Source: Asterochloris sp. CNOR1
Taxonomy: Eukaryota > Chlorophyta > Trebouxiophyceae > Trebouxiales > Trebouxiaceae
Direction of reading: 5' to 3'
DNA length: 64,000 bases
Assembly (NCBI GenBank): GCA_963969365.1
Contig: OZ017754.1
Location: forward strand, 124,001-188,000
The position numbers were made by a program, and so were the translations under genes. This document shows positions 1 to 17,100 of this stretch, piece after piece. The notes beneath the pieces were generated by a model. It saw only the letters and a list, made by a program, of their open reading frames with translations. It did not search any database and had not been told where the DNA came from. Positions within the stretch are counted from its first letter, which is position 1. Each line of letters begins with the position of its first letter.

Positions 1-24
1 CAAACCAGATCGACCCACCCCTTC

Positions 25-3014
25 ATGCAGCACTATCAGGTGCCATCTGCTGAGTACAGCAGCTACATCAACCATGTCATCAGTCTGGGGCTGGCTGGGG
101 ACTACATAGCACAACTACATGGCAGCTGCTCCCCAAACAGCCCCCCTGCCCTCAGAGCGGCCATTGATCAAGCCTGCAGACACTTGTCTGGAGTTGTGGA
201 TGATCTCCAGCCAGTGCCGGCCTCTGCTCCTGGTGTGCACAGTTTAGAGACTTTGGGCCAGCAGGATGGAGCACCAGTCTCAGACGCAGCAGTTGGCTTG
301 GCAGCAGCCATGCCTAACACTCCTGAGGAGGAAGCTCGTATCCTACAGCTCACCCAGCTCATCAATGCCCGTCATGGTGCGGCTAAGCCACAGAACACAG
401 TCCAGGCGGAAAAATCAGCTGCCAAGCTCTGGAGGGTAGGCACTGCATGGCCTTTTCTCCTGTTCTTATGGCTTCCTTGAGGCTTCCAAGGCCATGTCAC
501 TCACACACATGTGGTCCTGCAGAGATACTGTGAGCAGGAGGCGCACCGTTACCCTGATGGCGACCTCATGTCTCAGGCCAAGATTCTTGAGTTCTCGGTG
601 TGGCTTGTGGATGTGGCAGTGCAGCAGAATGGTGCTCGCTACTCATTCAGCAGCGTGGGGTGAGAGGCCCCTCCACTGCTGTGTCTGAGCTGCGCTCACG
701 TCCCTTCCCAACCCTTGGCCTGGTGCATGCAGTGATTATCTATGCCACCTCAAGGAAGTCCGCAGAGAGCAGTACTCAGAGGGCCGCATCACCTCAGATG
801 TACCTGCACCCCTGGAGATTCAAGCAGTCAGGGACTTGCTCCGTGCACGTGGCAGGGAGATGCAGGCTGAGAACCTCAATGCGCAAGTGGCAGCTCAGGT
901 GGGTACCGGCCTGGTCAGAGCGTCTTGTGCAAACAGAATGATGGTGTGTCTGACCCCAGCTTGTTGCTTGCATCTCCAGGTGGATGCCGCACTGAGCGCA
1001 GGGCAGCTTCGCCAGTCCCTGCAAGCAGCTTTCCAGCAGAAGCAGTGGCAGTGGGCGTATCTGCTGAGGATGGCAATGACATTCATGCCAGCCACACTGG
1101 GTCGCTCTGATGACCTGCGCAAGCTTCCCTGGAGCTGCCTGGCACTGAGAACACAGGATAATGTGGGCCCAGTGCCCTCTGTGGCAATCTTGTTTGGTAG
1201 CATGCAGGGGAAGACTGTGAAGCCTGGGCAGGTGGATATTCCTGGTGTCGTCAGGTATGCGCGTTCAAGCTGTCAGACGTAGTTGAGCTGTGTGCTGCCG
1301 TGTGTTTTCACTTGTATGCCTCCTCTGCCACAGGTACAGAGACCATCGCATCTGTCCTCAGGCAGCGCTTGCCGACCTGGCTGTCGCCACCTTCCACAGG
1401 GGCATCAAACTTGAGGATCTGGCCAAGTTCATTGTTGCCGCCCCTAGCATGCAGGGGAACCAGCCCATGAGTGGGGAGACTCTCAACGTTCACCTTCGGC
1501 AGGCTTTTGAACTTGCTGGTGAGCCAGTGCATCAATGCTGCAGCTTTTAGACACGGCTGTCGGTGACATCTGTGGCTTATTACACTGCAGGCGTGCCCTG
1601 TGGCAGGCTTGATGGGTACTCAGCTAAAGGGGAGGTCAGCCACAAATTTAAGAAGCATGGTGTGGAGGCGGCTAAGAGCATGGGCATCAACAAAGCGGAG
1701 ATCAAGATGGCAGCGAGGTAGGCAATACAGCCCATGGCATGCATTCTGAACAGTATTGTCTCCAGCTGGCTGACCATTGTTTTGCCTGTGCAGGCATGAG
1801 TCCGACACCACAGACCTGTATTGCATCTTTGACCCGGACACAGCACACAGGCTGGCTGGTTGGGGACGGGACTGGCATGAGAATCATCGTTTGGGCCAGG
1901 CTGATTACAAGGTACGGTAACTGTAGTGCCAGTGCTTCTCACAAGAATCACCAAATTCTGGGGAGGGGGTGACTGATCCAAATGTGTTCTGTAGGCTGAG
2001 GAGGACGTGCCGGACCGCATCATCCCAGGCTTGACAGTGCTCCTGCGCCAAGCTGGCATGTGATGCCACCCTGCACATCCTTTGCTGGCGCCCTTGAGGG
2101 CCATCGACCACCTTCGACAAGTGTTTGTGCAGAATGCCAGCTTGAGAATTGATTCGTATGGGGACCAGTGGCTCCGAAGCATCCCGCCAGCCGCCAGCCG
2201 CCTTCTGCAGAGCGCTGTAGGCAAGCAGCTGCGGCAGGAGACATGGGACAAACACGTTGCTGCTGAGGCGGTTCTCAGCGACAGAAATTTGTTGTTCACC
2301 AACCCAACAGTGAGTGCTGCCTAGGTGGTGTAGTCAAACATGCATTGCTCTGGACCTTTGCCCTTCCATGTTGCAGGCTTTCTTCTTCAAGACGCTGAGT
2401 GGAAAGGAGGCCATGCCTGTGCCTCTTGCCCCGATGGTGATGCTGCCTCAGGTGCCTCTTTCCGGTGTTCAGCCCCCAGCATCAGCCAAACCCATCCCAT
2501 GGGTGCCTCTGGCTTCACAGGCCAGCTATGGCATTACTCTGCCGCCTCAGTCCCTCAGTGCGCTGAGCGCCTTGGATGAGAGGGACTCCTTTTTGTTCGA
2601 GAAGCAGGTGTGTAGTCAATCGCCTTCCAGCTCGAGCGCCTGTATACTGGTCAGACTATACTTCTCCCTTTTCAGCTGCAGGTCTGGAAGCTCTCAGAAT
2701 TTCAAACAGTCCCAGAAGCATTTGAGGCGTTCTCCAAGATCTCAGCGGTGCCCTCAGACCTCCGCAGGTGGCATGGCAGCAAGAAGGATGCAAGGGCCAG
2801 CAGCACGGCCTTCTCGAGATTCAAGAATGGCCTTGCTGCTGTGGTCAGGAACCGCATGGCTGCCTTGGGAAGCACCATGGCTGCTGTTGTCGGGGCTTTA
2901 GAAATGGAACGTCAGCGCCTCCCTGCCACCAGGACAGTCAGCTCACTGCAGCAGCTATGCAGCAGGTACAGCAATGATTCCAAGCTCCTTGGCAAGCGTA
3001 AGCAGAGCGGCTGA
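25..3014 (+). pseudogene. Crypton-like tyrosine recombinase (Ndc10-type core plus GCR1_C-like domain), one in-frame stop
   Basis: Ten exons with consistent phases: 25-435, 523-659, 733-898, 980-1254, 1334-1518, 1591-1717, 1794-1911, 1995-2309, 2377-2607 and 2682-3014. An upstream exon may lie outside the window. Exon 4 has GRSDDLRKLPWSCL (first catalytic Arg region) and GKTVKPGQVDIPGVVR. Exon 5 continues YRDHRICPQAALADLA, as in Ndc10 domain II and fungal Crypton recombinases. Exon 6 has SHKFKKHG where HxxR is expected, so Lys replaces Arg. Exon 7 has the likely nucleophile in TTDLYCIFDPDTAHRLAGW. The last exon (VWKLSEFQTVPEAFEAF onward, then an Arg/Lys-rich helical stretch) resembles the GCR1_C DNA-binding domain of fungal Cryptons. 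A TGA at 2061-2063 interrupts exon 8 in frame; coding resumes in the same frame. So this is either a recent pseudogene or a protein ending just after the catalytic core. Family placement rests on motif recognition only. Confidence 0.72.
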
Positions 3015-3091
3015 GCAACCCTTTGATTGCTTGCTGACCTGCATTCACAACCTACCGCCATCTACCTGCACAGGTCACATCTCTCTGTTGA

Positions 3092-3168
3092 AAGTCATAT
3101 TTTACTGAGTGGTGTAGCATTTTACTCGTAAAGTGGCATTTCACTTCACAAAATCACATTTCATGCAG
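3092..3168. repeat. Iteron-like repeats, copy 1
   Basis: Four imperfect direct repeats of 18-19 bp start near 3094, 3112, 3131 and 3150, with a shared core close to CATTTYACT. The same array is present in copy 2 at about 12326-12400, although the intergenic DNA around it has diverged. It lies just after the recombinase stop codon and directly before a GC hairpin. Initiator-binding iterons next to a hairpin are typical of rolling-circle origins; that function is inferred. Confidence 0.55.
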
Positions 3169-3170
3169 GA

Positions 3171-3193
3171 GGGCAAGCCTCAAAGGCTTGCCC
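3171..3193. other. GC-rich perfect hairpin between the convergent genes, copy 1
   Basis: The arms GGGCAAGCCT and AGGCTTGCCC are perfectly complementary around a CAA loop. Copy 2 has a longer version of the same palindrome at 12401-12426. It could be a recognition hairpin for the HUH protein, or a shared terminator or 3'-end structure for the two convergent transcripts. Confidence 0.65.
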
Positions 3194-3204
3194 CCTGACA
3201 GACT

Positions 3205-3590
3205 ACACTTGAAACACTCTTGGTCTACATGAATCGATGATCTGCATTCCCGCGTAACCCTTTTCTCTGGGCCAATCAAACATTTTCTGGCTAGCCACTG
3301 CACAACAAAGTTCCACAACACTTGAACTCCACTTGAAAATATCAACCTGAGGGAGCCGGCCTGACTCAAACATGTCACACATGTGGTGGCTTTATGGACC
3401 TGGCATTGGCTACACTTGAATCCCTGGTGGCGAAAGAGGACCTGCTGGGGGCTTGAAAAGGGCTGCACTTGCGCAATCTGTGCATCTGTTACAAAGTCAT
3501 CAGGTGTGGGTACGTGGGTGCGCTTCCCACACCTGTGCTGTGGCATGGTGTATCAAAAATGCTTTCATGATCTTATAAACAAGCTTGTAT
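3205..3590. other. Conserved non-coding spacer with ACACTTGAA repeats, copy 1
   Basis: No coding frame is convincing here. The word ACACTTGAA or a close variant recurs around 3206, 3319, 3331 and 3409, and related words occur in copy 2. A TGTAA word on the minus strand (3493-3489), about 100 nt past the HUH stop codon, is conserved in copy 2 and is the likely polyadenylation signal of the HUH gene. Confidence 0.4.
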
Positions 3591-4720
3591 CATCTGGCCT
3601 TCATCACATCAGCAATGACAGCTGCCGGCAGGTTGTAACTGACACTTGCCCTTGCTGGCGCGCGACCAGCCGTCCATCCAGGAGGTGGGTACTTCCCAAA
3701 CAGATTGATGAATCCCTCCTCATAGTGCTGCCTCAGCTTGGCAATTGAGAGGTTGCCACGTCCAGTTTGTAACTTCCTGACAGGCTCAAGCAGCCTGAAT
3801 CGATGAAAGTCAGGAGGGTGCGCCTCTAAAAATTCATGACGAACCACCAGTTCCTCTCGCAGGCATCCGGTGGGCCCCTGCAGGTAATTCATGGAGCGCT
3901 TCCGCTGGATAGTCTGCTGCTCCTTTGGGAGGGCCTTGAACTCGTCCTCATCACAGGCAGGGTTGCGAATCAGGTCGCCTTCCTTACGCTTTGGCACAGT
4001 ACCAAAAGAGCTCTCGGCCAACACACTCGGCAAGGCGCTCCCTGTGCAACCCACACTCTCTGCGGCAGCTTTCAGCAGACGTTGGCACTCCTCATACGTC
4101 TTGCATGCAAATTCTGGAGTTCCTGCCTTGATGGCTGCTGTGGCCACTTGCACTGGGCCTTGGCGCCCAGAACCAATTCTTGCGCCTCCATGCGAGATCT
4201 CCCACTCTCCACTGCACATGAACTCCACTGTCCGGTGCTCAGCATCCTTTGGGCGGTGATTTGGATGGTCGTTGTTGTTCACGTACAGCGACCTGTAGTC
4301 GCCAAGCCCCTTCAAGCCGTGAGCCGGTCCAGCCTCTGCTTTCAACTCATTGAACATCTTGACCTCCACCAGCCCACTCTCTGTGCCAAATATGAGTGCC
4401 ATGGAGTCAACAATACGAGCTTTGACAGCGCTGTAGGTCCTGGGAGCCTCAGACATCACAAGGAAATGTACATGCTCGTTGCCTGGCTTGTGGTGAAGAG
4501 TGCCTGAGTACTTCTTGATGTTGTGTCCAAAGACATCCTTCAGAGCCGCCATGCTCTGGCGCGAGAACTGAGGCAGCTGGTCTTCATTAATGGTGATGTG
4601 GTTGACAACAATCTCAAAGTTGCGGTCTTGCCTCTTGCCGCTGCCTGGCTTAGACTTCATCATAGCCTGCTTTCCTATGGAGTGAGATTGAAAAGCTCTA
4701 AGTAAGTTCAATGTTGCCAT
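3590..4720 (-). CDS. HUH-motif Rep-like protein, copy 1
   Basis: Single open frame of 376 codons without introns. The conserved start may be the Met at codon 21 (4660), because the copy 2 product begins there. Residues 35-46 (NFEIVVNHITIN) form a candidate motif 1 strand. Residues 82-89 (EHVHFLVM, H83 and H85) match the metal-binding HUH motif. Residues 139-148 (LGDYRSLYVN, Y142 and Y146) could hold the catalytic tyrosine. A segment near residues 175-200 (GGAR...GPVQVATAAIKAG) resembles the G-R...V...I..G stretch that follows the nuclease domain in many Rep proteins. No helicase or Walker motifs follow, so the protein is much shorter than Helitron or parvovirus-type Reps. Similar small HUH proteins drive Replitron-type elements in green algae; whether this belongs to that group needs a profile search. 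Confidence 0.55.
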   Translation of the reverse strand: MATLNLLRAFQSHSIGKQAMMKSKPGSGKRQDRNFEIVVNHITINEDQLPQFSRQSMAALKDVFGHNIKKYSGTLHHKPGNEHVHFLVMSEAPRTYSAVKARIVDSMALIFGTESGLVEVKMFNELKAEAGPAHGLKGLGDYRSLYVNNNDHPNHRPKDAEHRTVEFMCSGEWEISHGGARIGSGRQGPVQVATAAIKAGTPEFACKTYEECQRLLKAAAESVGCTGSALPSVLAESSFGTVPKRKEGDLIRNPACDEDEFKALPKEQQTIQRKRSMNYLQGPTGCLREELVVRHEFLEAHPPDFHRFRLLEPVRKLQTGRGNLSIAKLRQHYEEGFINLFGKYPPPGWTAGRAPARASVSYNLPAAVIADVMKAR

Positions 4721-4732
4721 TGATCCTCGAGC

Positions 4733-4768
4733 TGCTGCCTTGCTTAGACTTCATCGTAGCCTGCTCTA
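4733..4768. repeat. Duplicate of the HUH gene start region
   Basis: The 35 bp here nearly repeat 4633-4668, which covers the MKSK start codons of the HUH gene about 100 bp away. It marks the point where homology with copy 2 stops, so it may record an insertion or template-switch junction. Confidence 0.5.
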
Positions 4769-4794
4769 AGAAAGTAGCCAGCTCTGTCTGCCTG

Positions 4795-5345
4795 AGCACA
4801 GACTAATGCTGAGCAGAAAGGACTGGCACGCGCATGCAAGCCCTTCCCCCTTGACTTTTGGTGAATTTGGTGATGCTCACCGGTCAAGACCAGCTGTATT
4901 TGGGGTAGCACAGATTCACGTCAAGCAGAAGGGATGGACAGGAGCACATGACAAGGGCATACGAGCCCCCACCCCTCCTGACATGAGGTCCCCCTCCCCT
5001 GACTTTTAGTGAGTGTGGTGGTGCTTGCAAGGTTCAGCTCTGTCTGCTTCAGCAAAGACTGAAGTCAATCAAGAAGGATCGGCCCGCCTGCATGAGCCCT
5101 CCTCTTCTGTTTCTTGGTGTTCATGGTGACAATGCCTGCCCAGACCAGCTTTGTTCGTCCTAGCACAACTTGATGTTGAGCAAAAGGGATGGACATGAGC
5201 CCCCGTCCCCTGGATTTGGTGATTTTGGTGATGCCCAGCCACTGAAGCTTCATCTACTTCAGCACAGACTGTGTTGAGCAGGACAATCACTGGAAGACAT
5301 GAGCCCCTCCTCCCCTGGAATTTGGCAACTTTGGTGCACTCACCT
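4795..5345. repeat. Degenerate tandem array of about 100-145 bp units
   Basis: Five diverged units begin near 4795, 4909, 5053, 5161 and 5262. Each starts with an AGCACAGACT-like word, followed by a GAGCAnAAGGGATGGACA-like segment and a GAGCCCCC...CCCCTGAnTTTGGTG segment. The array is absent from copy 2. No coding potential was seen. Confidence 0.65.
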
Positions 5346-5376
5346 ACCCATATAACAGGTCACATCCTCTGCTCAC

Positions 5377-5734
5377 CTCAATGTCCTTGAAGCTGATGCG
5401 TGATGGCTGTGACACAGCTGCTGACGCCTGAGCACTCAGCTTGGCCTGGTGCGCCTCCTCCTGGTTTCTCTGCAGGACAGTGAGAGCTGTGGGCCTGCTG
5501 GAGCCAAGGCCCTCTGTGAGCGGAATGCCAGCTTCCACAACACACCTTCTGTGCCTTTGCTGCAGCCAGTGCCTCCTCCTATTCCTGCTTCGTGATGCAG
5601 TTGCTGTCTGGGTCTTTTTCAGCGTCTGTCAGGAGGTCCCACCCCTTGCAATTAATTTTGCGCAGCTTCATGTGCGCTACGAAGTGTCCCCGCAGGTCAC
5701 TGAAGTGGTGGCAGGCAGGGCAGCGGAATGGCAT
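5377..5734 (-). pseudogene. Zinc-finger gene fragment inside copy 1
   Basis: Two minus-strand exons splice in phase: 5734-5546 and 5469-5377. The first begins MPFRCPACHHFSDLRG and has a CxxC...HxxxH pattern like a small zinc finger. It is interrupted by TAG at 5581-5579, then reads on as EALAAAKAQK. The second continues RNQEEAHQAKLSAQ to ISFKDIE, an acidic/Gln-rich helical stretch, and ends at a good donor site. No counterpart exists in copy 2. It may be a third element gene or a captured host fragment. Upstream and downstream exons were not found. Confidence 0.4.
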
Positions 5735-5890
5735 GGTGGCCAGTGAAACCGGGGTGCCGGTCAGGAGGGAAGCTCATTGACTTTCCTTTTGCATACTTCA
5801 AATCAATCATCACTCAGCAAGTCTAGGTGGGGCATAAGCACCATGAGTGAGCTCTGCCGCGAAGCAGCCCTTTAAGTTTCACGCCTTGTC

Positions 5891-5916
5891 GCAGGGTGTT
5901 ACATGGCTTACTTTAG
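5891..5916. repeat. Right-end word of element copy 1
   Basis: GCAGGGTGTTACATGGCTTA matches 14065-14084 with few changes. It also resembles the words at 9356-9411 on the left of copy 2. Similarity between the two copies stops a few bases after it (about 5916 and 14092), which defines the right edge. Confidence 0.5.
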
Positions 5917-6135
5917 GTCGGAAGGCAAACATCCCGAGACAAACAGCTGCATCAATTCTGCACCTTCCAGGTCTCCAAAGTATAACCATCAAGCAGCATT
6001 CTGCCGTCAGCAAGCAGTTGTCAGCAACGAACTGAGCACCTCCACACCAGCTGTGCAGGTGCGCACATCCTGCTGTCAGTGCCTTGTTCTGCATGGACTG
6101 CACCCAAGAACATAGAGGCTTGACTACCATCTGGA

Positions 6136-9100
6136 ATGTTCTCGATGCTGGTGGCTGCAGGCATGGATGCTCAGCAACTGGAGGACAAGCTGGTAGGAGA
6201 TGTGAAAGCGGCCAGGGAAGCATTGCTGGCCGAGGTGGATCCAGTCAACAAAGCAGAGCTCAGGATGATGTGGAAGGAGGCGAAGGATGAGCTGAACAGC
6301 TTCCGAAGGCAACAGGTGGCTGGAGGTGAGGATCACAAGCAGGGCTGCAAGGTTTGACCTGCATGGCATGTGGCAGCAGGTGGTGCGCCTGGCGGGAGGC
6401 GCTCTCCAGGGTCCTGCCACCAGGCTTGCAAGCCGCAAGCCTGGGCGTGCAGGGATGTTTGCACTTGTATGTCCACCCCACCAGGGCTGCACCATTGGGC
6501 TGGGTAAGCAGTCTTTACAGCCTGTGTCACAGCGGTTGAGAAGCGTGAGTGGTGATGCCTTGACGCTAAGTGTAGATGCCTTGGAGCTTGAGCGCCCAAG
6601 AAATGCGAACCTCATGAGCTCTTTGCAGTGCGCAGTAAGAGCGAAGACTTGAGGTTGCTAAGCTGCTTGTCATGGTAAAGGCCACCATGTCAATCATGTG
6701 CTGTGCCTTCTTGTGATGTGTGGGACACCAGGGTCATGGCCAGGCCTGGGCATGATCACCCTGTGATGGGTTCTTTCAAGTGGGCTGCAGCTTCTGTGCT
6801 GGCACACCTGGTGGGGACCTGCGCAGGAACCCAGCTCTGTCTGGCAGGGCAACTTGGGCTAGCAGATGCTTGTGCTCAGCCTGCAGGCATTGCACATCCA
6901 TCGTGCTGGGCTGCATCTGCAATGGGGAGGGCAGGCACTTCTTTGGCCTCTTGCACGGAGATGTATGGCAGCATGACCTGCAAGATTCTATGTGGGTCAC
7001 TTTGCTGGCCGCGAAGTCGAAGGCGGCCAGGTGGAAAGGTTTCACATTGGGCTCTACCTTACAATTGGGCTGCTGTTGCTGCAGGTCCCCCGCCAGATGT
7101 GTCCCCTGTACGCGCAGCAGAACTGGTGCAGCCAGAACTTCAGGGCCTGCCTCTCTCAGCACAGCTAAAAGACGTTCTGTACCAGAGGCCAGCCGCCAAG
7201 CTGCCTGTCTTCCGCAAAGCGCTGGCTGGCCTCAGCGCACATCTGGAGGGCCTGTGTGAGCAGGACGCGGGCAGCCACCTCACCCTGGCAGCGGCAGTCA
7301 CAGCTGCCATGTGTGCTCAACTCAGGCCAGGACAGGAGCACATGACTGCACTATTCATCGACAAATTCCTCACTGAGCTGCTGGTGGACGGGCTGGACGA
7401 GTCGCTGCCACCACAGCGGCGAATCGGGTTGATGGTGCTTCGCGATGAGGGTGACACTGACAGCACGATGACCCGCCGGTCAGACAAGGGCAAGAGCCTA
7501 CGCCCAGATGGGCAACTGCGCAGCCTAGACGGCCAGCGCCTGCTGTTCAAGTGGGAGGAGAAGGCTGCGGGTGTGCGGCTTGAGGAGGCTGTGGAGGACT
7601 TGAGATGTGAGACAACAAGGGTCATACAAAAGATGCCTTTGCCTGGGCTGCCTTTCTCTTCAAAAAGCAGGTGCTGCCATGTCCATCCTGCCCAGCAGGC
7701 CACTGGCTACCAACTGCAGCATGGCCACTTCTCACTTGCCATGCAAAGTTGCAGCCCTAAGTTGTGTTTTCGTGCTGACTGCAGGGAAGATGGCAGCATG
7801 GTCTCCCCTTTACTATGGAGATCTGCCCTACCTCCTGACAGCTGCAGCCGCTGGTGCACAATTTCAGTTCTTCGCCATCGAGCGCGAGAGTGTCGCCCTG
7901 CCTCTGCCAGTCGGTCCGCAACTGAACCTCAACCTCGCAAGAGACCGGGCTGAGCTAGTCATTGCCATGATCAACCTGCACCGCCTGCTGCGCGCCGTCC
8001 AGGAACTCCTTCCAAACTATGTGCTCCCCGTGGACCTGCCGCAGAGGGCCAAACACCAGCTTGGCTATACGCGCACATTGTGAGTGTCCTGCTCTGCCAT
8101 CTGCACTCATGATCCGGGCGTACCTCTGGACCAGGGCAGCACCAATGTTGGTCGGCAAGCCCTGATGCCATCCTGTGCCTGCTTTGCATGGCATGATGCT
8201 ACCCAGCATGGCTCACGGGATGCAAGGCCCCCTTGAACAGCAGTCACTGCCTGTCACATGTAGAAACCCCTCTGCTACTTTCAAACAGCATTGCATCTTC
8301 GTAGAACCTGCTGCCATCTGACCCTGACATGCCTGTGGTCTGCCTGCAGGTGCTTCAAGTCTGATTTGACTGTGCACAAGACCATCGAGAAGTGGAGCCT
8401 CTTCAGCAACGCCTGGAGTGTGGACCCTGCTGAGCTGGAGTCGGTCTACTTCCTCACTGCAGGCTGTGCTGGGCTTGTGCATGCGACGCAGCCCCCAGGC
8501 GTGTCTGAGGAGGACACCTATAGTGTCTACTTGCAGCCAGTTGGTCTGCAGCGCAGCGATGCCAAGCCCCGCAATGAAGAGGAGGCAGTCAGCGCAGCTC
8601 ATGGCCTGCTGCATGGCCTCGCCGCTCTTCACAAGGTGCGCACTCATGCAAGGCTGATGGCACTTGGGTGTGCCAGGTGAGGGACGTTGGCTTGTTCATG
8701 ACTGTCACCCTGCAGGAACAGCGTGGGAGTCCAGTCCCTTGACTGTGCACTCCCGGGCCCTGGGCAGAGCCGTGACCCTCCATCGTTGTGCAGGCTGGGT
8801 TTGTCCACAGAGATCTGCGCTGGCACAACACAGCCTGCAGCATCCAGCGGCGCTACTTCCTGCTCGACTTGGAGCTGTGTGGGAGGCCTGGCAGAACTGC
8901 ATTCACTGTGGAAACGTGGCCCAACAACATTGTGCAGCAAGGCGATGCATACACTGAGGCATCTGACATTCTCGTACTTGGCAACATGCTTCGCAGTTTG
9001 GATGTTGTGAGGAGCCCAGAGGGTCATGCATTCTTGCAGCGCATGCAGCCTTCCAGGCATGGCCAAGCTTTGCCAACAGCAGAAGACTTACTGGGTGATC

Positions 9101-9162
9101 CCTGGATAAGTTGCATTGGCGACACATGTAGGAGTGCTGGTGCACAGCCAAACATCAGATGA
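6136..9162 (+). CDS. PD-(D/E)XK nuclease-like plus protein kinase-like fusion
   Basis: Five exons fit in phase: 6136-6325, 7085-7606, 7785-8079, 8350-8635 and 8794-9162, giving 553 residues. Intron 1 (759 bp) is unusually long and may hide another exon. The first 60 residues are a charged helix. Around residues 203-223 the order RPDGQL...LLFKWEEK matches the PD...ExK core of restriction-like nucleases. The C-terminal exon opens GFVHRDLRWHN (H436, R437, D438, N443), a kinase catalytic loop. It is followed by FLLDLELCG, where DLE (D456) stands in for DFG. No clear glycine-rich loop or VAIK lysine was found in the preceding exons. Nuclease-kinase fusions of this order are known among Crinkler-type proteins of fungi, oomycetes and algae. 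A TGTAA word at 9201-9205 is a likely polyadenylation signal. Activity of either domain is unproven. Confidence 0.6.
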
Positions 9163-9355
9163 ATCAGTGCCTGACATCTGCAACTTGTGGATCAACAACT
9201 TGTAACATGCAGTGGACAACAGCTGCCATACTTTGCGTTCCTTTCCTTTGAGGCAGGAGCTGACCTGAAGAATGCGCTGATGAACAACCAACTTAGCAGG
9301 TGAAGGTACTCAGCACTCAAGAGGATGACAGAATATATGCAAACTCAGCACTGGC

Positions 9356-9411
9356 TGTCACATGGCCTGTGATATAGTAACATGTTACAGGGTGTCACAT
9401 GGCCTGTGATA
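9356..9411. repeat. Tandem 19-bp terminal word left of element copy 2
   Basis: TGTCACATGGCCTGTGATA occurs twice, at 9356-9374 and 9393-9411, 37 bp apart. Each copy is a near-palindrome (TCACA-TGGCC-TGTGA), the form expected of a recombinase core site. The core CACATGGC recurs at the right end of both element copies. Confidence 0.6.
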
Positions 9412-9470
9412 CAACGACCTAAGTCCTAGGTCAGCAACCCTAGCGCGCCAAAGTTCCCAGATCCATCTTC

Positions 9471-12246
9471 ATGCAGCACTACCAAGTGCCATCTGCTCAG
9501 TACAGCAGCTACATTAACCATGTCATCAACCTGGGGCTGGCTGGGGACTACATAGCGCAACTGCATGGCAGTTGCTTCCAAGACAGCCCCCGTTCTCTCA
9601 GAGCGGCCATTAATCAAGCCTGCAGACACCTGTCTGGCGTGGTGGATGATCTCCAGCCAGTGCCGGTCTCTGCCCTTGGTGTGCACAGTTGAGAGACCTT
9701 GGTCCAGCAGAATGGAGCACCAATCCCAGACGCAGCAGTTGGCTTGGCAGCAACCATGCCTAACTCTCCTGAGGAGGAAGCTCGTATCCTCCGGTGCACC
9801 CAGCACATCAATGTGCGTCATGGTGCGGCTAAGCCACAGAACACAGTCCAGGCTGAAAATACGCTGCCAAGCTCTGGAAGGTAGACACCGTAGCCCTTTG
9901 ATCCCATTCTTCATGGCGCCCTTGATGCTTACGAGGACATGTCGCTCACACACACCCATTCTTGCAGAGATACTGTGAGCAGGAGGCGTCCCCTGATGGC
10001 GACCTCATGTCCAGGCCAAGATTCTTGAGTTCTCGATATGGCTTGTGGATGAGGCAGTGCAGCAGAATGGTGCTCGTTACTCATTCAGCAGTGTGGGGTG
10101 AGAGGCCACTCCACTGCCGTGTCTGAGCTGCACTCAAGTCTTGCCCTCCCAACTTTGGCCTGGTGTGTGCAGTGATTATCTGTGCCACCTCAAGCAAGTC
10201 CGCAGAGAGCAGTACTCACAGGGCCGCATCAACTCAGATGTACCCGCACCCCTCGAGATTCAGGCAGTTAGGGACTTGGTCCGTGCACGTGGCAAGGAGA
10301 TGCAGGCTGAGAACCTCAATGCGCAGGTGGCAGCTCAGGTGTGTATGGACCTCAGAGGGCTTCCCTGTTTTGAAGTGGACTGTGGTGGGCTGGCATCAGC
10401 CTGGATCAACGAAGCTGGCGTCTTTGCCCTGACCATGGCTTCCAAGCTGCCATCGGCCAAGAAGTCTCAGCGCTGGGTGTTCTCAGGGTTGGCTGAACAG
10501 ATGACTGACATGCTTCCTAGCTCTGCTTTGTTCATCCACTTCTCTCCATGAGATTTTCTGTCTGTCTTGAAACGTTCCATCAGCTCGGCTGGCACAAGCC
10601 CAGCCGCTACTTGTGACTTTCATGCATCAAGTTGCTGTTTGAATGTGCAGGTGGATGCTGCACTGAGCGCAGGGCAGCTTCGCCAGTCCCTGCAAAAAGC
10701 TTTCCAGCAGAAGCAGTGGCAGTGGGCCTGTCTGCTGAGGATGGCAATGACGTTCATGCCAGCCACACTGGGCCGCTCTGATGACCTGCGCAAGCTTCCC
10801 TGGAGCTGCCTGGCACTGAGGACGCAGGATGGTGTGGGGCCAACGCCCTCTGTGGCAGTCCTCTGTGGTAGCATGCAGGGGAAGACTGTGAAGCCTGGGC
10901 AGGTGGATATTCCTGGTGTCGTCAGGTATGCGCATTCATGTTGTCAGACGCACTTGGGCAGTTTGCTGCAGTGTGTTCTCAGTTTTCATGCCTCCTCTGC
11001 CGCAGGTATCGAGACCATCGCATCTGTCCTCAGGCAGCGCTTGCCGACCTGGCTGTCGCTACCTTCCACAGGGGCATCAAACTTGAGATCTGGCCAACTA
11101 CATTGTTGCAGCCCCTAGCATGCAGGGGAATCAGCCCATGAGCGGGCAGACCCTCAACGTTCACCTTCGGCAGGCTTTTGACCTTGCTGGTGAGCCCGTG
11201 CGTTAATGCTTCAGATTTTGGACACGGCTGTGGGTGACATCTGTTGCTTGTTACACTGCAGGTGTGCCCTGTGGCAGGCTTGATGGGTACTCAACAAAAG
11301 GGGAAGTCAGCCACAAATTCAAGAAGCATGGTGTGGAGGCGGCAAAGAATGTGGGCATCAACAAAGCGGAGATCAAGATGGCGGCGAGGTAGGCACTTCA
11401 TGGCTCCGCACCATCCCGCCAGCAACCAGTCGCCTTCTGCAGAGCGCTGTAGGCAAGCAGCTGCGGCAAGAGACATGGGACAAACACATTGCCGCTGAGA
11501 GGATTCTCAAAGACAAAAATGAGTTTTTCACCAACCCAATGGTGAGCGCTGTGGCCTTGAGGTGTCCAGATCTAGATCAACCATGCTCTGACCCTTTCCC
11601 CTGCCATGTCGCAGGCTTTCTTCAAGACGCTGAGTGGAAAGGAGGCCACGCCTATGCCAGTTGCCCCTGTGGTGATGCTGCCCCAGGTGCCTCTTTCCAG
11701 TGTTCAGCCTCCAGCATCCGCCAACCCCATGCCGTGGGTGCCTCTGGCTTCAAAGGCCAGCAATGGCAACACTCTGCCGCCTCAGGCCCTCAGTGCGCTG
11801 AGCCCCGGGGATGAGAGGGACTCCTTTTTGGTCGAGAAACAGGTATGCAGTCGAATGCCTTTCAGCTTGAGCGCCTGAGTACTGGTCAGACCTTGTCGCC
11901 TTGTGAACTGCAGGTGTGGAAGCTCTCAGATTTCCAGACAGTCCCAGAAGCATTTGAGGCGTTCTCCAAGATCTCAGCGGTGCCTTCAGACCTCCGCAGG
12001 TGGCATGGCAGCAAGAAAGAAGCAAGGGCCAGCAGCATGGCCTTCTCAAGATTCAAAAATGGCATCGCTGCTGAAGTCAGGAACCGCATGGTGGCCTTGG
12101 GAAGCACCATGGCTGCTGTGGTCGGAGCTTTAGAAATGGAACGTGACCGAATTTCCGCCACCAGGACACTCAGCTCACTGCAGCAGCTATGCAGCAGGTA
12201 CAGCAGTGATTCCAAGCTGCTTGGCAAGCGTAAGCAGAGCAGCTGA
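9471..12246 (+). pseudogene. Crypton-like tyrosine recombinase, copy 2 (dead)
   Basis: Aligns exon by exon with the gene at 25-3014 but is clearly inactive. The codon matching the Leu after GVHS in copy 1 is TGA here (about 9690). Exon 2 (from about 9969) has several small deletions. One base is lost in exon 5 near 11086 (LEIW for LEDLAKF). A deletion of about 440 bp after about 11392 removes the exons with the presumed tyrosine nucleophile and the AEEDVPDRIIPGL segment. The C-terminal GCR1_C-like exon (VWKLSDFQTVPEAF...KRKQSS) is still open to 12246. Intron positions are the same as in copy 1. Confidence 0.75.
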
Positions 12247-12325
12247 GCAAGCCTTTGATTGTTTGCTGATCTAAATCGAAACCCCTACCGCCAATTACCT
12301 GCACAGGTACATTTCTCTGCTGAAA

Positions 12326-12426
12326 GTCATATCTTACTGAGCGGTGTAACATTTCACTCAAAAAGTTAGATTTCACTCCACAAAATCAGATCTCATGCAA
12401 GGGGGCAAGCCTGCAGGCTTGCCCCC
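12326..12426. repeat. Iteron-like repeats and palindrome, copy 2
   Basis: Counterpart of 3092-3193. The repeat units keep spacing and core (ATTTCACT, ATTTCACTCC, ATCTCATGC). The hairpin is a perfect palindrome with arms GGGGGCAAGCC and GGCTTGCCCCC around TGCA (12401-12426). The stem is preserved although loop and outer bases differ from copy 1, which suggests the fold matters. Confidence 0.6.
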
Positions 12427-12828
12427 CCAACAGACTACACTTGAAATACTCTTGGTCTACATGAACTGAAGATCTGCATGTCCGCGTAACCCTTTTCTCT
12501 GGGCCAATCAACCACTTTTGGCTTGCCACTACACAACAAAGGTTCCACTACACTTGAACTACACTACACAGGTATTACTCAGAGGGAGCTGGCCTGACCA
12601 ACACATGTGGTGGCTTTTTGGACCTGGCAGCATCTACACTTGAATCCCTGGTGGCACAAGAGGACCTCCTGGGCCCTTGAAAAGGGCTGCAGTCGCGCAA
12701 TCTGTGCATCTGTTACAAAGTCATACGGTGTGGTACATGGACGCACCTTCCACACCTGTGCTGTGGCATGGTGATTCAGACAAGTTCATGATCTTGTAAA
12801 TAATTATTTACAAGCTTATAAGCTTGTA

Positions 12829-13893
12829 TCATCTGGCCTTCATCACATCAGCAATAACTGCTGCTGGCAGATTGTAACTGACACATGCCCCTGCTGGCGC
12901 ACAACCAGACGTCCATCCAGGAGGTAGGTAGTCCTTGAACAGATGGATGAATGCCTCCTCGTAGAGCTGCTTCAACTTGGGAACTGTGAGCATCCTGTTA
13001 GATTGCAACTTCCTGATTGGCTCAAGGAGCCTGAATCTGTAAAAATCAGGAGGGTGTCCCTCCAGAAAGTTGTGCTTGACCACCACCTCCTCCCTTAGGC
13101 TTAGCCCGTCTGGCCCCTGCATATACTTCATGGTGCGCTTCCGCTTGCTGGTTTGCTCCTGTTTGGGTAGGGCCTTGAACTCCTCCTCATCATAGGCAGG
13201 GTTGGGGACGAAGTCACCCTCCACGCGCTTGGGCACAGTACTGAAGAAGCCCGGTACCTTCGGCAAGGTATATATGGTGCAACCCACACTCTTCGCGGCG
13301 GCTTCCAGCAGACGCCGGAAAGCCTCATAGTTTTTGCACTGCAACTCTGGAGTCCCTGCCCTGATGGCCGCTATTGCCACTTGCACTGGCCCTTGTCGTC
13401 CAGCACTGTTCCTGGCACCTCCATGTGAAATTTCCCAATCTCCACCACACATGAACTCCACTGTCCTGTGCTCAGGATGCTTTGGGCGGTGATTCTCATG
13501 GTCGTTATTGTTCACGTACAGCGACCTGTAGTCGCCAAGCCCCTTCAGGCCGTGAGCTGGTCCAGCATCTGCTTTCAACTCATTGAACAACTTCACTTCC
13601 ACAGAGTCAGTCTGTGTGCCAAAGATGAGTGCCATGGAGGCAGCAATACTGGCTTTGACAGCGCTCTTGGTCTTAGGAGCCTCAGACATCACAAGGAAGT
13701 GTACATGGTGGTTGCCGGACTTGTGGTGAAGAGTGCCTGAGTACTTCTTGATGTTGTGTCCAAAGACATCCTTCAGAGCCGCCATGCTCTGCCGCGAGAC
13801 CTGAGGCAGCTGGTCTTCATTGGTGGTGATGTGGTTGACAACAATCTCAAAGTTGCGCTCTTGCCTCTTGCCACTGCCTGGCTTAGACTTCAT
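12829..13893 (-). CDS. HUH-motif Rep-like protein, copy 2
   Basis: Open frame of 354 codons starting MKSKPGSGKRQERNFEIV, collinear with the copy 1 protein without frameshift over its whole length. The HVHFLVM motif (H63, H65), the GLGDYRSLYVNNNDH segment (Tyr candidates) and the C-terminal SYNLPAAVIADVMKAR are unchanged. Substitutions cluster elsewhere, for example in the central GTxxKRxEGD region. No intron is apparent, in contrast to the spliced recombinase beside it. A conserved minus-strand TGTAA word lies about 110 nt past the stop codon. Intact reading in both copies, while the recombinase has decayed, suggests that the HUH protein has been kept functional longer. Confidence 0.55.
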   Translation of the reverse strand: MKSKPGSGKRQERNFEIVVNHITTNEDQLPQVSRQSMAALKDVFGHNIKKYSGTLHHKSGNHHVHFLVMSEAPKTKSAVKASIAASMALIFGTQTDSVEVKLFNELKADAGPAHGLKGLGDYRSLYVNNNDHENHRPKHPEHRTVEFMCGGDWEISHGGARNSAGRQGPVQVAIAAIRAGTPELQCKNYEAFRRLLEAAAKSVGCTIYTLPKVPGFFSTVPKRVEGDFVPNPAYDEEEFKALPKQEQTSKRKRTMKYMQGPDGLSLREEVVVKHNFLEGHPPDFYRFRLLEPIRKLQSNRMLTVPKLKQLYEEAFIHLFKDYLPPGWTSGCAPAGACVSYNLPAAVIADVMKAR

Positions 13894-14064
13894 TCTAGCG
13901 TGCTTACCTATGGTGAGATTGAAAAGCTCTAAGTAGGCACACAGTCCTAAGCTCTTTGACTTTTCATTTGAAACCTCAAACTTTTATCAAGAAGTATTCC
14001 GGTGGGCATGAGCACGATGAATAGGCTCTGTTGCGGAGCAGGCCTTGAAGTTTCAAGCCATGTT

Positions 14065-14092
14065 GCAGGGCGTCACATGGCTTACTATAGGT
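14065..14092. repeat. Right-end word of element copy 2
   Basis: GCAGGGCGTCACATGGCTTA is the partner of 5891-5910 and shares CACATGGC with the left-end words at 9356-9411. Unique host sequence leading into the monooxygenase gene follows. Confidence 0.5.
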
Positions 14093-14166
14093 TCATGTTA
14101 CACATATGTTGCATTTGTGAGTTGCCACTGCTCTGACTGGCTGCTCCGTCCTGCTGTGCTGTGAAG

Positions 14167-17100
14167 ATGCATATCATTGTGGTTGGGGGATCCATTGGGG
14201 GGCTGTCTGCAGCCCATGCCCTGCTGCGGGCAGGGCACTCAGTCACGGTGCTGGAGCGGGCAGGCTCCATATCAGCAGCTGGCGCAGTGAGTGCCCGCTT
14301 GTCGCCACGACTCTGGGTCTGTCAAAGGCCACATGCATACATAACATGCATGGCGGGTGACATGGCCTATCCTGCTGGCGACCAATTTGCTTGCCCTTGA
14401 CCTGCTGCAGGGACTGCACTCCTGCACATGCACTACATGTGCACAGCAATAAGACTGCCCCACTCTCCTTCCATTCAGCCTGCTACAGGGCTGGACATGC
14501 ACACAGCGATCAGCCTGCCCCCATGCTGCTGCAGGGGTTGGGGCTGGACTCCTGCACATGTAGCGTCTTGGAGTCGTGGGGGCTAGGGGCGCAGCTGAAG
14601 CAGAACTCTGTGCCGATGGAGATAGAGGAGAACCGCATCATCACCAATAGGGCTGCAAAAGTGGTGCTGAGGGATCAGCAGCGGCGAAACCGCAGGTAAA
14701 CGCTCTTCAGACCATGGCACTACTACCATGCCGCTGAGCTGACGCACTCGCAGTGGCCTTCAAGCTGCTTGAGCTAAGCACTTCTGGCCCCACCGTGTTT
14801 AGAGCACGCCCTGGTCAGACATCCACCAAGTGCTTGAGCCGGCGCATATGGTCATTGCGCACCTCCTGCAAAGCCTCACAATACCGCCCTGCCTGCAGCA
14901 CGCACTGGTCAGACATCCATCAGATGCTGCTTAACGGCTTGCCAGACCCCAGCATCGTCAAATTCAGCCACAGGGTCATCGACTTCCAGCAGCCGCAGGG
15001 CAGCACCTGCGTGCACGTTGTGGTGGCCAAAGGGGGCAAAGAGGACCCTTCTGAGTGTGTGGAGCTGGAGGCAGACCTCATGGTGGCAGCTGACGGGTCT
15101 ATGAGCAACACGCGAGCCAAGTTCTGGCCAGATGAGAGGCGCAGGTGCACACCTGAGGGTAACCTTGCACACTGTCACTGCAGTAGCCTGTGGTAGGGAA
15201 AAACAGTTCCAGGCCACCACCTGGTTTGACTGTACAGTCCACCACCTGGTGCCCTGTCCAGGGGCAGCCTGGGGACCTGCCTGTTGCATAAGTCTGTCAA
15301 CACCACGGCGGCCCACCGGCAAGGTCTTGATCTGTATTGAGAGCCGGCCTGCCACGTGTCGAACTGCTTCATTTAGCCAGCATGTCCGCTTGACGTGCCA
15401 TGTGAGTGTGCTCATGTATGTGCAGCTGACAGCCACAACCCAGTGGCCCAGCCCTGCCCGTCAGTAACCTGGCCCCTGCTGTTGACCGTGACCCAGCCTC
15501 TGCTGTTGACAGCAGGCCCTCACCAGTTCCCCGCATGTGTGCAGGTACAGCGGCTACTGTGCCTGGCGTGGGGTGATGCAGGCCTCAGAAGATCCAGAAG
15601 TGGCCACCGCCATCCGGCAGGAGTACCACGACTTTGGCAATGCCTTATATTTTGACATTGCTGGTGACACCCATGCTGTGGTTTATGAGCTCCCTCGGGA
15701 GAGGCTCAACTGGCTCTGGTGAGCAAGCGCTAAGCATTGCCTGACTTCCTGTTGCCAATCAAATTGGCGTTGTTTACACTCTACAGATACTAGTAGCAGA
15801 CTTTACGCCCGCAGGCAAAGTGCATTTTCCATTCTTTGGCAGGCAGTTTCTGCATTTTAGGTGCGGCAGCGGGGTGGCATCATTCTATGTTTTGTTCAGA
15901 CAGCAGCTGCTCAAGCATCTGTGCTGTGCCCTGCCTGCATTCAACTACGCTTCACAGTTTGTGCCTCAAGCAGGCAACCTCCCGCCGGCAGCTGCCAATT
16001 GCACTGCAAAGGGTGTCAGTCCAGGCTCTCACATGGCATGTGTTTGATCAGGTTATTGCTGGGGTGGATGTATCATGTTGCTTGGAAAGCACTGCCACCA
16101 ACGTGAAGCAGTCGGTGACCAGGGCTTCACGTGAATTTGTGCAGTTCAGGTACGTCAACCAGCCAGAGCCAGAACTGCAGGGGCACTCCGTGACCGTCAA
16201 GGCAGACCAGGCCAGGACAGACAGCATGTGCCGGGATGCAGAGCAGACCTGGCCGCCAGCATTAAGCAAGCTGATGCAGGTAGGCCTGGTCCTTGTTTTG
16301 ACAAACATGGGGGGCTGGTGTGGTCTAGTAGGATCAGCAACCCGTGCAAAGCAAGTGGTGGCTCCAAACCTCTTGATGGTAAAATTAGAACACAAGCAAG
16401 TGCAAAGTAGTCTATCTGCTTGGACAATGTTCACTCGCAAGGTGCTATGTAAGTATTGTTGTTCTTTGCTCTTTGGCCGAAAAGCTTGGGGGGTCCTTGA
16501 TGTTTGCTGCGCATTTCATGCAGCGCGCACTATGAGGCTCACCCTTACTGCTGTCTGCATGAAGTAGCAGTACCTGCTGTGCTGCATTCATGGAGTAAAA
16601 CACACTTTGCCACCTTGTTATGATATGCAGCCGGGCTAGAGACACCCCAATGCATACATTTCCACAGTTTGTTGATGCCACAGAGCACTGCCGCGCCCTT
16701 CATCAATGCGATCTATGACAAGGAGCCGTTGGATCAGCTGGTCCACGGCAGAGTTGTGCTGCTGGGCGAGGCTGCTCATCCCACAACTCCGCACGGCCTG
16801 CGCAGGTAAGCTGCTCAGGCGCCACCAGAATTGCACTGTGGCGTACAGCATGTGTGACCACCAGTCCTGGTGACAGCAGCAATGTCACTGCTGCTGCTTG
16901 ATTTTCTGAGCCCAGGTGAGCCAGCAGGTGGGCTTGCTGCAGAGCCTGCTGGGAGGCCCGCCGCAACAATGGACAACCTGCCCCTATTGCAATGCATGTC
17001 TGAGCCCCTGGGGTGTCTGGCAATGGTGCAGTAGACTAGACTGCAATCCCTTGACCCAGAATGTCAGACTCCCAGGTCAGGCTCGATACAATTGGCTGCC

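Follow-up and report, generated by a model that had tools for sequence, protein, structure and literature searches.

Among eukaryotic mobile elements, those that use a tyrosine recombinase (YR), such as the Cryptons, and those that use an HUH endonuclease are both known, each enzyme type occurring alone, and it is in bacteria that the actinomycete integrative and conjugative elements (AICEs) and the integrative mobilizable elements (IMEs) combine a YR integrase, a relaxase or Rep protein, and cargo. Here we describe a stretch of 64,000 nucleotides (the window; positions 124,001 to 188,000 of contig OZ017754.1, assembly GCA_963969365.1) of the green alga Asterochloris sp. CNOR1, which probably contains a modular mobile element of three parts: a gene for a YR and a gene for an HUH protein, which together make up module A, and an exchangeable cargo module, K.

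Several described systems share part of this organization. AICEs and IMEs have the same combination of YR, HUH protein and cargo, whereas the algal element is eukaryotic, its genes are spliced, and no transfer genes were noticed in it. The CTnDOT and Tn916 integrases likewise go with variable bases beside a short common core. The Starships of fungi are also YR elements with variable cargo, but the algal element is much smaller, includes an HUH protein, changes its cargo at a palindrome, and its recombinase gave no match to DUF3435 in our YR scans (maximum E 10, with most weak matches dropped by HMMER filters). Helitrons and Replitrons are eukaryotic HUH elements, whereas the algal element has a YR and YR-type ends, and profile scans of its 354-residue HUH protein gave no match to a helicase, which would be fused to it in a Helitron.

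Cryptons, as described in PMC3212892, have terminal direct repeats of 4–6 bp and a proposed circular intermediate. The algal element resembles them, and CryptonF in particular, in its apparently Ndc10-kind YR, in its terminal direct repeats (here GACCTA at both ends of A plus K) and in the circle that we propose for it; it differs from the Cryptons of that account in its HUH enzyme, its cargo module, its palindromic internal core, its lack of a GCR1_C match, and its inverted ends, since Cryptons have no terminal inverted repeats. Among the papers listed by a literature search, judged from titles and abstract openings, there was no eukaryotic element with both YR and HUH proteins and no Crinkler element of this sort in a lichen alga. 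The Asterochloris genome paper (PMC6652019) uses none of the terms Crypton, recombinase and Crinkler in its main text.

Two diverged copies of module A, W1 and W2, are present in the window (Table 1), and as the original prediction held, each keeps a convergent pair consisting of a spliced YR gene and a gene with an HUH motif. Positions 21–4704 align with 9467–13935 in three blocks of 83–91% identity, and the two HUH proteins are 77% identical and of similar length. Module A of W1 extends beyond the start of the window, to a palindrome at contig C9:123967-123983.

Table 1. Positions in the window of the two element copies, their genes, cores and cargo.
Feature	Position	Strand	Remarks
Module A of copy W1 (HUH and YR gene pair)	1..5919	-	left end at 5919, read downwards
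YR gene of W1	25..3013	+	hand-made 11-exon model, GT-AG introns, 733 aa, stop-free; exons 25-435, 523-659, 733-898, 980-1254, 1334-1518, 1591-1717, 1794-1911, 1995-2036, 2133-2309, 2377-2607, 2682-3013; intron 2037-2132 doubtful
Stem-loop between convergent genes of W1	3171..3193	.	10-bp stem, 3-nt loop
HUH relaxase-like gene of W1	3590..4660	-	HVH motif; GLGDYRSLYV
Repeat-bearing extra DNA, HUH gene to left end of W1	4766..5770	.	present in a few close W1 relatives too
Core TAGGTC/GACCTA	5914..5919	.	W1 left end = left end of inverted cargo
Cargo module K	5914..9421	+	inverted relative to W2; from W1 left end to W2 palindrome
Cargo right-end repeats	9361..9411	+	two or more units, spaced at 37 bp
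Module A of copy W2 (gene pair)	9416..14093	-	left end at 14093, read downwards
Palindrome GACCTA-AGTCC-TAGGTC	9416..9432	.	W2 module A/cargo joint
YR gene of W2	9467..12246	+	broken, without stretch matching W1 1725-2168
Stem-loop of W2	12401..12426	.	26-nt perfect palindrome
HUH relaxase-like gene of W2	12829..13893	-	354 aa, open frame
Left core of W2	14088..14093	.	TAGGTT; AACCTA on minus strand

A genome search confirmed the existence of many copies beyond the window. The HUH protein query gave 128 matches in the 56.4-Mb genome, which fall into 81 clusters; 25 of the matches begin at residue 1 or 2 and reach the end of the protein uninterrupted by a stop. The YR query gave 293 matches, with at least 51 clusters among the matches listed (built from part of the 293, with four rows within clusters already counted omitted). 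Forty-five of these 51 YR clusters are convergent to an HUH cluster within 8.5 kb, whereas 200 shuffles gave 0.4 on average and never more than 2. Seen from the HUH side, at least 45 of the 81 clusters have a YR partner among the matches listed, a lower bound because YR matches were counted only there. There is very good support for the two genes being linked as a repeated unit, and the predicted joint occurrence extends to common termini, in that 29 of 30 loci have a left end at which similarity begins sharply with GACCTATAGTAAGCCATGTGAC or a closely related sequence. Module A copies of 99.6–99.7% identity are present in the genome, so recent movement of the element is likely. The named relatives in protein searches were all Astpho2 gene models, that is, Asterochloris. 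Between the convergent genes, 23 of 30 loci have the same stem as W1, with arms of at least 9 bp and a variable loop. An A subfamily represented by L027 and L131 (C6:2356775-2365754) has about 4 kb of extra DNA from the HUH gene to the YR gene, with a kinase-type cargo piece.

The right end of module A carries an exact motif, present at 51 sites, which is followed by the palindrome GACCTA-N5-TAGGTC, altered in some copies; 19 of 28 listed left ends have one of 24 tested right ends 4.7–8.9 kb away. Beyond the palindrome there is mostly GGNAGGC and then the cargo, which, in the cases with a located far end, is 2–10 kb long and terminates in TTGCGGGGTGTCACATGGCCTGTGATA-NNNN-GACCTA before unrelated DNA. 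The cargo of the window, for example, begins TAGGTCGGAAGGC and ends TGATA-CAAC-GACCTA. At 32 such far ends conservation stops, four variable bases follow (the last being T in 24 of the 32), and then GAC (30–31 of 32), CTA (22–28 of 32) and near-random DNA; at the left ends near-random DNA, with T at position -1 in 17 of 28, gives way to GACCTA. The left end recurs at the far end in inverted orientation, with a mean of 22.8 of 31 bases matching (range 17–26 over 28 x 32 pairs) against a mean of 8 and a maximum of 17 in 2000 shuffled draws. Matching stem-loops at both ends were considered as well and dropped on a recount, the inverted repeat being firm and the stems weak.

Thirty-nine separate cargo far ends were located; upstream of 25 of them a module A lies in register, and two more abut an inverted A (27 of 39), where random placement gives a mean of 0.6 and a maximum of 3. 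We do not take the 5-kb unit to be the complete element, because the far-end motif lies in register with module A; the 4.7-kb unit of the original prediction likewise does not stand as the element, a third part, the cargo, being present, of which the stretch between W1 and W2 (5914–9421) is an instance. The palindrome spacer tracks A and not K: it is GCAA, ACAA, GCAT or GCGT in 17 of 17 subfamily-a copies and in 1 of 34 others, two further non-subfamily-a copies having GCAC or ACAC. Since the spacer follows the A subfamily, the breakpoint lies in the second half of the palindrome, TAGGTC. We discounted a simple target duplication, as the four-base flanks are unequal at the two ends. Some bacterial integrases leave coupling sequences, host-site bases that travel with the element, and the variable end bases seen here would fit old host-site bases carried along in this way. 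About 75 bp separate the left end of W2 from the start codon (ATG, 14167) of a frame that begins MHIIVVGGSIGGL (window 14093–14169) and by eye resembles an FAD monooxygenase.

The relationship between A and K is variable, both in orientation and in content. Among the 51 A right ends, 34 adjoin K in forward orientation and five adjoin inverted K, one of these (L079) being diverged; in the window, W2 is followed by inverted cargo, read from 9421 down to 5914, the far side of which runs straight into W1's left core. Module A of W1 is 99.74% identical to a copy on contig C4 (3825 bp) and 99.63% identical to one on contig C16 (3826 bp), the comparison leaving some 2 kb of the C4 and C16 modules uncovered, and identity is 100% over the final 97–99 bp including the palindrome, after which the cargo differs. 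The cargo modules of W1 and C16 are similar only at their ends, and the roughly 100 bp seen of the C4 cargo is by eye a diverged relative of that of W1. More than one type of A lies beside like cargo starts in seven of eight multi-member groups, for which no control was run, and of these seven one is an inverted group united by end repeats and two rest on unclassed A ends. Units are also arrayed: at L009 the arrangement is cargo end-ATAT-GACCTATAG, with a single core common to two units, and of nine further cargo left ends fetched from outside the 51 exact A right ends, five adjoin slightly changed A right ends and two (on C3 and C9) adjoin a common other sequence and look like tandem cargo. 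At C9:1455078-1465143 (L127, L134) and C3:820-9553 there are apparently two tandem cargo modules behind one A module or remnant. The far ends of some modules (L091, L093 and L112, for example) carry 37-bp tandem repeats, each with a different four-base spacer, as if the units had been added singly. The shared ends, the cores, the arrays, the inversion and the change of cargo at the palindrome are all results at the level of sequence.

Nine cargo modules were read whole or in part, and all except those of C3 and C1 were included in the profile scan. Matches were obtained to HNH_2 in the W1 cargo (2e-3), Trypsin_2 in C5 (1.6e-4), Pkinase in C6 (5.5e-6) and C18 (9e-6), and AAA_16 in C12 (1.3e-3), and stretches resembling a P-loop or a restriction endonuclease (REase) were seen by eye in C3 and C12. 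Profile scans of the C16 cargo and the window cargo gave nothing useful; the latter has a frame at 8788–9159 that is kinase-like by motif only, without a Pfam match. A homology search with a joined cargo query returned nothing at E 0.001, and missed the alga's own gene models too. The domains recall the C-termini of CR (Crinkler) effectors, which in a review of CRN proteins (PMC5289972) comprise NTPase with REase, REase with kinase, HNH and trypsin. The set appears to be the same, HNH, trypsin, kinase with REase, and P-loop NTPase, although in the alga it occurs as exchangeable cargo in a YR/HUH element. The Crinkler header domain was not matched in the two header pieces scanned, and for this reason we regard membership of the CR kind as no more than likely.

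The product of the plus-strand gene is probably a tyrosine recombinase of the Crypton/Ndc10 kind. The W1 model aligns along its full length with gene model P0086 (734 aa), at 86% identity, and its catalytic exons match NDC10_II (E 0.029 over 160 residues), the sole family matched. The same family matches four of ten natural YR pieces from the gene models of relatives (E 0.008–0.16) and three of 15 whole YR members (best E 0.016), and the motifs RSDDLR, GKT, YRDHRICPQAAL, SHKFKKHG and RHESDTTDLY are recognizable by eye in relatives. A whole-genome search with NDC10_II yielded zero matches, and zero in controls too, and is uninformative. The spliced recombinase gene of the original prediction is kept in the 11-exon model, and its Ndc10 type would agree with the weak NDC10_II match. 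GCR1_C is not supported, as the W1 C-terminal exons had no match to that family in the profile scan. The sole GCR1_C match among the matches listed, at L001 (C8:2780580-2780834), is outside the element copies seen here.

We consider it very probable that the minus-strand gene encodes an HUH enzyme. The HVH motif on which it was predicted is present in 22 of 24 loci read, and GLG[DN]Y.SLYV in 23 of 24. Among 35 members of the family, MobL matches 11 (best E 1.8e-4, for P0022 residues 25–112, which include the HVH motif), MobP2 seven (0.017), MobP3 three (0.022) and Rep_OBD three (best E 0.03), the matches coming from two profile libraries; PHROGs gave no informative match. A six-frame search of the whole genome with MobL gave three matches (best E 0.003), all within copies of the HUH gene, and a match in one of 14 control genomes. 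The gene was also predicted to be intronless, and it is an open frame in the window, but it may be incomplete there, as gene model P0009 splices a Cys-rich C-terminus onto the HUH protein. A similar Cys-rich frame (KCSQCQ..CVTC) follows the HUH gene in the window at 3154–3546 on the minus strand.

The HUH open reading frame (ORF) is under constraint between subfamilies. Its ratio of nonsynonymous to synonymous substitution rates (dN/dS) is 0.31 between W1 and W2, and the median is 0.295 in 181 pairs with dS of 0.3–0.6, in a sample of the 24 of 30 loci that passed the frame filter. The median rises in closer pairs, to 0.38 (dS 0.1–0.3), 0.43 (0.03–0.1) and 0.62 (below 0.03). With values of about 0.3 across subfamilies and 0.4–0.6 in close pairs, constraint is at work in the long term, and it may be absent from many of the recent copies.

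From these data we infer a circular intermediate, catalysis, and a division of labour between the two enzymes. The YR is proposed to recombine the GACCTA cores, because direct cores at the outer ends together with inverted cores around K are what YR-type action would use. Recombination between the direct outer cores would excise A plus K as a circle, to be inserted at TGACCTA-like sites, and recombination between the inverted cores flanking K would flip it, or swap it between elements by cassette exchange. The HUH protein may nick near a stem-loop, the best candidate being that between the two genes, and such a nick would initiate copying by a rolling circle, in which case movement would increase the number of copies.

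Other explanations have to be weighed against this three-part element. The one we take most seriously, although we doubt it, is that only module A, of about 5 kb, is mobile, and that K is a separate effector family, or a set of units that move on their own, next to the left ends of which A preferentially lies. Near-identical A copies do adjoin different K, tandem cargo occurs, 12 of the 39 cargo far ends have no counted module A, and two of the nine further cargo left ends (L124 on C11, L125 on C15) are preceded by unrelated DNA. However, A's left end is mirrored at the far end of K and not at A's own right end, cargo-like left flanks of A number four of 29 (by eye) against K at the right flank in 39 of 51, and K is inverted at exact cores. 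It is unlikely that the HUH protein is itself the transposase, transferring strands at the ends in the manner of Helitrons or Replitrons, with the YR merely resolving or inverting: the inverted ends, some with stem-loops, and the four variable bases beside GAC would suit such a process, but the direct GACCTA repeats, the exact inversions and the cargo exchange suit site-specific recombination. The small protein could alternatively be HUH-like in appearance and serve as a DNA-binding regulator, and the sub-threshold scores and unmatched window proteins discussed below lean that way; we think this improbable given that relaxase and Rep families are matched in two libraries, that both motifs are conserved in nearly all of the loci read, and that genome-wide MobL matches are confined to this family. 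Least credible is the chance fusion of a Crypton with an HUH element in which one partner is dead weight. Each enzyme type does occur alone in eukaryotes, and the closest pairs reach a dN/dS of 0.62, but the common left end, the pairing of YR clusters and the ratio of about 0.3 between subfamilies make this very improbable.

Several observations weigh against the three-part element itself. Besides the cargo far ends and left ends without A, 12 of the 51 A right ends have no clear K type (some resemble K with a changed core), the four variable bases are unequal at the two ends of one element, stems of 9–10 bp are found at 12 of 28 left ends only, with far ends mostly having 5 bp (27 of 32), and no empty site or circle was seen. 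All profile scores for HUH, YR and cargo proteins are under curated cut-offs. The window's own two HUH proteins have no match to MobL or another HUH family; unrelated families also match HUH members (DUF4630 five of 35, DUF1382 three of 35), and searches against PDB sequences were uninformative. Taken as a whole, the W1 YR protein from the spliced model has no Pfam match at E 0.1, and the motif commonly written HxxR has Lys in place of its Arg, the second Arg of these enzymes, in the YR relatives that cover it. Intron 2037–2132 of the W1 model is used by one aligned gene model (P0096) and is coding in nine, and reading W1 straight through it meets an in-frame stop, so the W1 gene may be broken; that of W2 is damaged. 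Our confidence in the YR is lower on account of these low scores and of W1's in-frame stop.

The original prediction envisaged a new element class, or a nested pair now moving together; the linked pair was correctly seen, and what was missed was the cargo module with its Crinkler-like genes, the GACCTA core and the inversion. A eukaryotic mobile element is usually assigned to its class by one recombination chemistry; the algal element appears to hold two, as bacterial integrative elements do. More tentatively, it may be a eukaryotic counterpart of integrative mobilizable elements or integrons, in which a YR and a relaxase would shuffle, stack and invert the cassettes of toxin-like effectors in a lichen alga through naturally occurring recombinase-mediated cassette exchange, and possibly move them from cell to cell. 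The element offers effector genes a possible route to being swapped and inverted as cassettes, and it makes a lichen alga a place to test whether Crinkler-type effectors are, as suspected, linked to mobile DNA.

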